64,000 nt of DNA from Mesorhizobium sp. NFR06 (GTDB lineage Bacteria > Pseudomonadota > Alphaproteobacteria > Rhizobiales > Rhizobiaceae). Below the pieces are notes generated by a model. That model was not told the DNA's origin. It worked only from the letters and a program-made list of their open reading frames with translations, and did no database searches. Shown piece after piece: positions 45,819 to 47,749 of the stretch; position 1 is the stretch's first letter, and every line of letters starts with the position of its first letter. Position numbers and translations under genes: made by a program. The DNA lies in the NCBI RefSeq assembly GCF_900115245.1, contig NZ_FOVT01000002.1, positions 377,005-441,004 on the forward strand, given 5' to 3'.

Positions 45819-46568
45819 TCACCAGGGCAACGGGCCGTTCTCATCGAAGTAGCCGCCGGTCGGTCCGCCGGCCTCCAGTGTCGCCAGGCGCACGATGATC
45901 CCGGCCGCCTGCTGCACCGTGCGGCCGCCTCTGTGTGCATTGAGGTCCGTCGCGGTGTAACCGGGAGCGGCTGCATTGACCATGATGCCGCGCGACGCAA
46001 GCTCCCGCGCGAAGGCCAGTGTTACGGCGTTGAGCGCGGTCTTCGAACTGCCGTAGCCCATGACATTCGGCGACTGGCTGTTGCCGGCCGCGCGTGCCAG
46101 CGATCCGAGATAGCTGCTTACCATGACGATGCGGGCAGCGGTCGATGCCAGGAGTAGCGGCAGGAACGCTTGCGTGACCCGCACCGGACCGAAGACGTTG
46201 ACGTCATAGGTGGCTTTCATATCCGCGACATCTTCCTGGCTCGGCAGCCTTTCGTAGCGGCCGTCCGGACCGAGCGCGTCGACATAGCCGGGAGCGATGC
46301 CGGCGTTGTTGACCAGCACATCCAGTCGGGGCGCCCGCGCTGCGACCGTTTTGGCGGCCGTCGCCACGCTGCCGTCGCTGGCGACGTCGAGCGCAAGCCA
46401 CTCGACGTCGAGCCCCTCGCCGCGCAGCGCTTCCGCCGCGGCTCCGCCGCGCTCGGCGTCCCGGGCGCCAAGCCAGACTTTGAAACCCAGTGCCGCCAGC
46501 CGCCGAGCGGTCTCGAGGCCGATGCCCTTGTTGGCGCCGGTCACCAGTGCGTTCTTTTGCGTCGTCAT
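45819..46568 (-). CDS. Short-chain dehydrogenase/reductase
   Basis: 249 residues. TGANKGIGLETARRLA cofactor motif, NNAGIAPG, VMVSSYLGS and the catalytic Tyr/Lys in MGYGSSKTA. Of the carbonyl-reductase-like SDR subgroup often paired with AraC regulators. It is divergent from the AraC gene, with the 23-bp repeat array between them. Confidence 0.9.
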   Translation of the reverse strand: MTTQKNALVTGANKGIGLETARRLAALGFKVWLGARDAERGGAAAEALRGEGLDVEWLALDVASDGSVATAAKTVAARAPRLDVLVNNAGIAPGYVDALGPDGRYERLPSQEDVADMKATYDVNVFGPVRVTQAFLPLLLASTAARIVMVSSYLGSLARAAGNSQSPNVMGYGSSKTALNAVTLAFARELASRGIMVNAAAPGYTATDLNAHRGGRTVQQAAGIIVRLATLEAGGPTGGYFDENGPLPW

Positions 46569-46660
46569 ATCCGTGTCTCCCTTTCGGCGGTCTAGACATG
46601 GCGTTAGCCGGTCCGCTTGGCGCGCCGAAAGCTCTCACGCTCTTGCCTAATCCTCTCAGT

Positions 46661-46793
46661 TGGGTGCGCGTCTTCGCGTCACCTGGGTGCGCGTCTTCGC
46701 GTCACCTGGGTGCGCGTCTTCGCGTCACCTGGGTGCGCGTCTTCGCGTCACCTGGGTGCGCGTCTTCGCGTCAGGTGTGCGTCTTCGCGCTAC
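46661..46793. repeat. Array of 23-bp imperfect palindromes
   Basis: The unit TGGGTGCGCGTCTTCGCGTCACC occurs four times without change (46661-46683, 46684-46706, 46707-46729, 46730-46752), then as a 21-base copy (46753-46773) and a degenerate one (46774-46793). Each unit holds GGTG-CGCG-TCTT-CGCG-T-CACC, an inverted repeat with one extra base. There are no spacers, so it is not CRISPR. It occupies the divergent SDR/AraC intergenic region. Confidence 0.95.
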
Positions 46794-46855
46794 TGTGAGC
46801 ACTTCTCCGCGTCACCTTGGTTGCGAGACCATCGTGGATCAGCAATGCTGGAAGG

Positions 46856-47749
46856 ATGAATGAAGTGCTGCGGGAATTGATCGCGATCGCCGGCCGCCAT
46901 GCGCTTGGGCGCCGCACAAAAACTGCTATTCCGCGCGTCACGATCGGGCGCAGCGAGGTCCCGAGTCCACCGCTGCCAGAGCTTTGCCAGCCGACCGTGC
47001 TGTTCGTGCTGCAAGGAACCAAAACGGTGCTGATCGGCGACCGCACGCTTGCCTACAGCGCCGGCAGCTATTTCGTCTACGCGGTGGAGACGCCCGCGAC
47101 CAGCCAGTTGATCGAGGCCAGCGGCGCCCGGCCTTACATGGCCCTCGCCTTCGCCCTCGATATCGAGTTGATCGCCGGCCTGCTTATCGATCACAAGTCG
47201 GCTGTCGGCGGCGACAGCTTCGTCACCAATCCCGCCGATGACGAACTGCTCGACGCCTGGCGCCGGATGCTGCACTTGCTTGACCGGCCGGGCGAAATTC
47301 CGGTGCTCGCGCCCATGCTCGAACGGGAGATCGCGTTCCGGCTGTTGCAAGGCCCGCAAGGCGGGAAGCTGCGTCAGCTTGCACACGCCGACGGGCGCCT
47401 GTCGCGGATCCGCCGCGCCACGGCGTGGATCCGGGCGCATTACAACGAGCCGATCGATGTGACGGATCTGGCCGCGCTGTCGCATATGAGCAACGCCGCG
47501 TTTCATCGCCACTTCAAGGCAGCGACGGCCATGAGCCCGATCCAGTATCAGAAGCAGCTCCGCCTGCTCGAGGCGCGCCATCTGCTGATCGCGCAACCGG
47601 GTAACGCCGCGCATGTCGCCTTCACCGTCGGCTACGAAAGCGCTTCCCAATTCAGCCGCGAATATGCGCGCCAGTTCGGACTGCCTCCGGCGCGCGACGC
47701 CGCGCGGCTTCTTGCCAAGGGCGAGGCGGCTACGCTGGAAGTCGACTGA
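46856..47749 (+). CDS. AraC-family transcriptional regulator
   Basis: 297 residues. N-terminal AraC_N sensor domain (about 15-165: PTVLFVLQGTKTVLIGDRTLAYSAGSYFVYAVE) and C-terminal double helix-turn-helix (IDVTDLAALSHMSNAAFHRHFKAATAMSPIQYQKQLRLLEAR; FTVGYESASQFSREYARQFG). ATG 46856 directly follows GGAAGG, which is closer than ideal; GTG 46817 is an alternative. It probably controls the divergent SDR; the repeat array may be its operator. Confidence 0.88.
   Translation: MNEVLRELIAIAGRHALGRRTKTAIPRVTIGRSEVPSPPLPELCQPTVLFVLQGTKTVLIGDRTLAYSAGSYFVYAVETPATSQLIEASGARPYMALAFALDIELIAGLLIDHKSAVGGDSFVTNPADDELLDAWRRMLHLLDRPGEIPVLAPMLEREIAFRLLQGPQGGKLRQLAHADGRLSRIRRATAWIRAHYNEPIDVTDLAALSHMSNAAFHRHFKAATAMSPIQYQKQLRLLEARHLLIAQPGNAAHVAFTVGYESASQFSREYARQFGLPPARDAARLLAKGEAATLEVD

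Follow-up and report, generated by a model that had tools for sequence, protein, structure and literature searches.

Tandem repeats in promoters are so far known mostly from pathogens and over short time scales. In Mycobacterium tuberculosis such repeats lie immediately upstream of the promoters of dop, lpdA and cysG, those of lpdA and cysG being leaderless; their copy number varies between lineages and within populations, and they have been proposed to alter promoter strength (PMC12817950). A second described system resembles the present locus in its genes. In the E. coli YqhC/yqhD pair, an AraC-type regulator is divergent from its oxidoreductase target, and one binding site lies in the spacer between them (PMC8249747).

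Here we describe a tandem array of short palindromic units in Mesorhizobium sp. NFR06, within a window of 64,000 nt (the whole stretch of DNA that was analysed), lying between a regulator gene of the AraC type and a divergent oxidoreductase gene. No earlier description of the array, or of the operator-like element next to it, was found in the literature searched. Our preferred reading, which we hold with about even confidence, is that it is a promoter tandem repeat restricted to this locus, that each unit is a putative protein-binding site, and that the array mainly affects araC.

Genes and flanking elements

The neighbouring genes are as the initial annotation had them. On the minus strand there is an SDR oxidoreductase gene (45819-46568; PF00106, E 2.2e-44), for which a divergent orthologue is found in 62 of the 62 loci compared. 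On the plus strand there is an AraC_N-family regulator gene (46856-47749), here called araC, with an AraC_N domain and an HTH domain (PF06719, E 6.3e-44; PF12833, E 2.1e-19), and downstream of this is a tRNA-Gln.

The array is bounded by two conserved elements. The first is the 19-bp CTCTTGCCTAATCCTCTCA (46640-46658, plus strand), which is near-invariant in the 62 loci, whether or not they have an array. Its core, CTTGCCTAWTYCT, changes only rarely among the 62, of which 31 are array-free, and a match within 2 mismatches also precedes each of five AraC paralogues (48-58% identity), the background for this search being 12 hits in 584 kb of strand. The array unit lacks this core, and the conserved element sits outside the units. 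The simplest reading is that 46640-46658 is probably one AraC operator, and we infer a role in recognition by the regulator. A second match to the element in the genome (contig C3) is inside coding sequence, and was taken as chance. It is worth adding that the genome has a second AraC_N regulator, on contig 13, which is divergent to another SDR gene and has no such array; a search within 2 mismatches found no operator-like element upstream of it.

The second element is the predicted araC promoter (46821-46849, plus strand), with a -35 hexamer TTGCGA, a 17-bp spacer, a -10 hexamer AATGCT and 6 bp to the ATG, implying a leaderless transcript. The spacing is kept in orthologous loci. All of those compared, with or without an array, have in common a TTGC-type hexamer, N17, an AATGCT-like hexamer and 5-7 bp to the ATG, and it is from this fixed spacing that the TTGCGC-N17-AATGCT element is taken to be the promoter of a leaderless araC message.

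Architecture of the array

Tandem Repeats Finder identified an array at 46661-46773 (period 23, 4.9 copies, 100% matches, score 226), which is by far the strongest in the window. It begins with four identical 23-bp units, TGGGTGCGCGTCTTCGCGTCACC (46661-46752, plus strand), supported also by exact core matches: the 21-bp core GGTGCGCGTCTTCGCGTCACC is found exactly at 46663, 46686, 46709 and 46732, and a fifth match, at 46755, has 2 mismatches; dinucleotide shuffles give an expectation of 0.01 chance matches. The array of 23-bp palindromic units reported in the initial annotation is thus real. That annotation counted four perfect units, one shortened and one degenerate, and ended the array at 46793. 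The four identical units stand; the fifth (46753-46773) is nearly complete, having 2 mismatches over the 21-bp core, with its CACC arm altered at the last two bases, and it is followed by two degenerate units rather than one, namely GGTGTGCGTCTTCGCGCTACT (46774-46794) and TGAGCACTTCTCCGCGTCACC (46796-46816), all three on the plus strand and the last two each matching at 13/17 arm positions. The array therefore extends to 46816, almost to the araC -35 box, with the seventh unit adjoining the -35 region.

The layout of the unit is GGTGCGCG-N4-CGCGTCACC, and the whole array occupies one slot between the conserved operator-like and promoter-like elements. The GGTG-CGCG...CGCG-CACC inverted repeat is present as described earlier, but it is imperfect: the axes of GGTG/CACC and CGCG/CGCG are half a base pair apart, because a single T is left unpaired. 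The folding energy of the unit as single-stranded DNA is -8.1 kcal/mol (z -4.6). The proposal that the units lie on nearly one face of the helix did not hold up. The 23-bp pitch corresponds to 2.19 turns, which rotates each unit by about 69 degrees relative to the one before; the units are therefore not all on one face over five units, and the period is 21, 22 or 23 according to species.

Specificity for the locus

REP-type elements are short GC-rich imperfect palindromes that are scattered through a genome. The Mesorhizobium unit resembles such dispersed elements in being a short, GC-rich, imperfect and intergenic palindrome, but differs from them in being confined to one locus. The check for scattered copies that the initial annotation had called for, a simple dispersed repeat being the outcome that would count against it, found the array to be locus-specific: there is no copy elsewhere in the 6.16-Mb genome at up to 3 mismatches. 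A dispersed, REP-like repeat was rejected on this basis.

A collection of species genomes was then scanned with the 17-base core of the unit. Multi-copy arrays were found only in Mesorhizobium records and in two related metagenome bins, and all seven array records that were read map to the SDR/AraC gene pair. Viral contigs, considered as a source in phage, gave no match, and no orthologues were found at E 1e-100 in the sample of other genera of the family. Under looser matching, most hits at other places in the genus are scattered single copies whose loops vary. The exception is one genome (G016) with nine GTGCGCGTAATCGCGTCAC matches that resembled a dispersed family, having the same arms and the loop TAAT; the copy that was read lies inside an IS30-like transposase gene, and this nine-copy palindrome is unrelated to the array.

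Comparison of Mesorhizobium loci

The intergenic regions of 62 Mesorhizobium genomes with the orthologous SDR/AraC pair were compared by landmark, with one genome per species, so that differences in copy number are differences between species. They have a constant backbone, consisting of the SDR start, a spacer, CTCTTGCCTAATCCTCTCA, a slot, TTGCGC-N17-AATGCT, about 6 bp, and the araC ATG. It is the slot that varies. In 31 of the 62, including the whole outgroup, it is 5-6 bp long; in the other 31 it is 16-162 bp, has precise edges and is filled by an array or its remnants, the array ending a few bases before the predicted -35 box in the related loci as in the window. Between one and seven unit copies are present across the genus, and the suggestion of a variable-number element is therefore supported. 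Short-read assemblies break or may collapse at the array, leaving copy numbers, including that of the window, under-counted. In one metagenome bin, two contigs (L024 and L030) both end within the array.

The variation is confined to one side. The SDR-side spacer is fixed at 71-75 bp in array loci; it is 80-83 bp in the outgroup and 163 bp in L112. The standard deviation of the spacing is 1.3 bp on the SDR side versus 34 bp on the araC side. Any effect on expression of the divergent pair, as originally envisaged, is probably lopsided, as only the araC-side spacing changes. The long spacer in L112 reflects an SDR leader about 90 bp longer, with a strong inverted repeat (GGGCGCGTCGCCAAACGCGACGCGCC); this is a separate insertion, lying across the operator from the slot.

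The units themselves are spaced at steps of 21, 22 or 23 bp in different species, with linkers of 0 to 2 bp that vary from A to TG or CA. There are two main unit types with the same arms, one with the loop TCTT, seen mostly in one clade, and one with CTTG, seen mostly in the other. The lengths of the slot tend to fall near multiples of about 11 bp (R 0.56), which might mean that helical phase is kept, with the unit length of 21-23 bp and shared ancestry explaining much of the clustering.

These comparisons bear on the original proposal of a cooperative operator array bound by the neighbouring AraC regulator; we now consider this unlikely. The array does lie between regulator and target and adjoins the probable AraC operator, and AraC proteins are able to bind degenerate sites. 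However, the element conserved across the 62 loci, and with up to 2 mismatches at paralogous ones, is the separate single CTTGCCTAWTYCT element, which the unit lacks; at 31 loci the orthologous regulator has no unit beside it; the pitch of 21-23 bp leaves helical phasing unfixed; and asymmetry is usual in AraC-type sites. The units are thus unlikely to be sites of the regulator itself, though it may bind them weakly.

Evolution of the array

Copy number changes readily. Insert lengths in sister species differ widely (115 vs 28, 152 vs 61, 93 vs 36 and 61 vs 16 bp), and a MAG that is about 94-96% identical to genome G007 has at least 6 units versus 3. On a tree of araC plus SDR, the array state requires at least two changes, recombination being possible in this reading, and a single clade of array genomes is disfavoured (AU p 0.011). 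The tree is equally compatible with two gains and with a single gain that was later exactly reversed in a clade of 13. Many close relatives have no array or a degenerate one, and many lineages keep remnants only; the array is therefore dispensable.

As to its origin, part of the unit resembles the ancestral operator/-35 junction TCACCTGGTTGCGCG, at 14/15 bases in L112. The signal for duplication of this junction is reached in 1/300 shuffles for L112 and 5/300 for L111, and is weak in most other loci. Local duplication of the junction is a plausible origin, to be taken only as a lead. Changes in the length of the array would come about by slippage or unequal recombination.

Much of this would also be expected of a neutral minisatellite, that is, a self-complementary GC-rich sequence at a tolerant site, driven by slippage and serving as a tolerated spacer with no selected function, in which template switching or gene conversion keeps the copies alike. 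This is the main rival to the binding-site reading, and we regard it as a serious if less probable possibility. It would account for the shift in copy number at almost every split, for the decay of units at the araC end and the lineages with remnants only, and for the strong folding of the unit, which favours slippage; the likeness to the ancestral junction makes origin by local duplication plausible. What it does not account for is the sequence of the unit: homogenisation alone leaves the rate of change between species unslowed, yet genomes about 30% apart at fourfold sites share one unit sequence, down to the non-GC loop TCTT, while their linkers differ.

Conservation of the unit

In the larger clade, seven array genomes have a mean consensus arm distance of 0.034. 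In the same comparison the distance is 0.27 for the SDR leader, 0.30 for araC fourfold sites and 0.00 for the operator. The neutral tree of seven array genomes predicts about 25 changes in 21 bp, and their consensus units are almost unchanged. The 21-bp unit of intact arrays is thus nearly identical across genomes about 30% apart at neutral sites, with linkers and flanks drifting, although the partial use of likeness to the consensus in recognising array genomes inflates the apparent constraint, and some relatives have decayed units. This pattern argues for selection acting on the unit sequence. Operator-proximal units are better kept than araC-proximal ones (15.5 vs 13.7 of 17 positions; 11 genomes vs 4; Wilcoxon p 0.012, uncorrected for shared ancestry).

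A further possibility is that the units act as hairpins, either as an RNA attenuator or terminator or as extruded cruciforms. The strong predicted fold is in keeping with this, as are two units in which compensation is clear (L101, GGGG/CCCC; L096, GATG/CATT) and a covariation score of the arms of 0.117, versus 0.091 in shuffled alignments, with 8/500 shuffles reaching 0.117. However, sliding by 3 columns gives the same score, and most arm changes break pairs or hit one side only; with such weak pair-by-pair compensation, it is the sequence, more than hairpin pairing, that seems to be kept. In addition, the predicted leaderless araC start lies downstream of the array, and the operator separates the array from the SDR gene, so that the array is probably not transcribed. 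Hairpins are the least probable of the explanations that we considered.

Proposed function

Returning to the binding-site reading, each unit would be a double-stranded site for a DNA-binding protein other than, or besides, the AraC regulator. The array would both distance the operator from the araC promoter and add a variable number of sites, tuning the dose of the regulator through autoregulation; the SDR gene would be affected only via the regulator. The comparison of loci suggests that the array could plausibly be a copy-number dial on araC. A fuller version, more tentative, is that it might be a genus-specific dial, in which a conserved candidate protein site is amplified between operator and leaderless promoter, and slippage re-tunes autoregulation with the target promoter untouched. 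Several observations stand against the binding-site reading. The unit has no second genomic copy, and a supposed binder would hence have no regulon; the array is missing or decayed in many close relatives, and its period is not fixed to the helix; and consensus-based recognition of array genomes inflates the constraint on which the reading draws.

Over about 60 species, the locus can be followed through an array-free state and at least two gain or loss events, the slot staying fixed and the unit constant as its number changes. It therefore offers a natural copy-number series for asking whether promoter repeats are selected or merely tolerated.

Comparison with known systems

The single operator at 46640-46658 fits the single site of YqhC, the regulators being likened by AraC type alone. 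The target here is an SDR, those of YqhC being an alcohol or aldo-keto reductase, and the Mesorhizobium locus carries a repeat array, which the excerpt on YqhC/yqhD does not mention (PMC8249747). With the M. tuberculosis repeats, the array has in common tandem units of variable copy number just upstream of a leaderless promoter, here a predicted one. It differs in that the unit is a 21-bp imperfect palindrome with linkers of 0-2 bp, placed between an operator-like element and the promoter of a regulator, and in that the variation is seen across species, in a divergent pair, rather than between lineages. If copy number matters, the Mesorhizobium array would work in the same way as the M. tuberculosis repeats.
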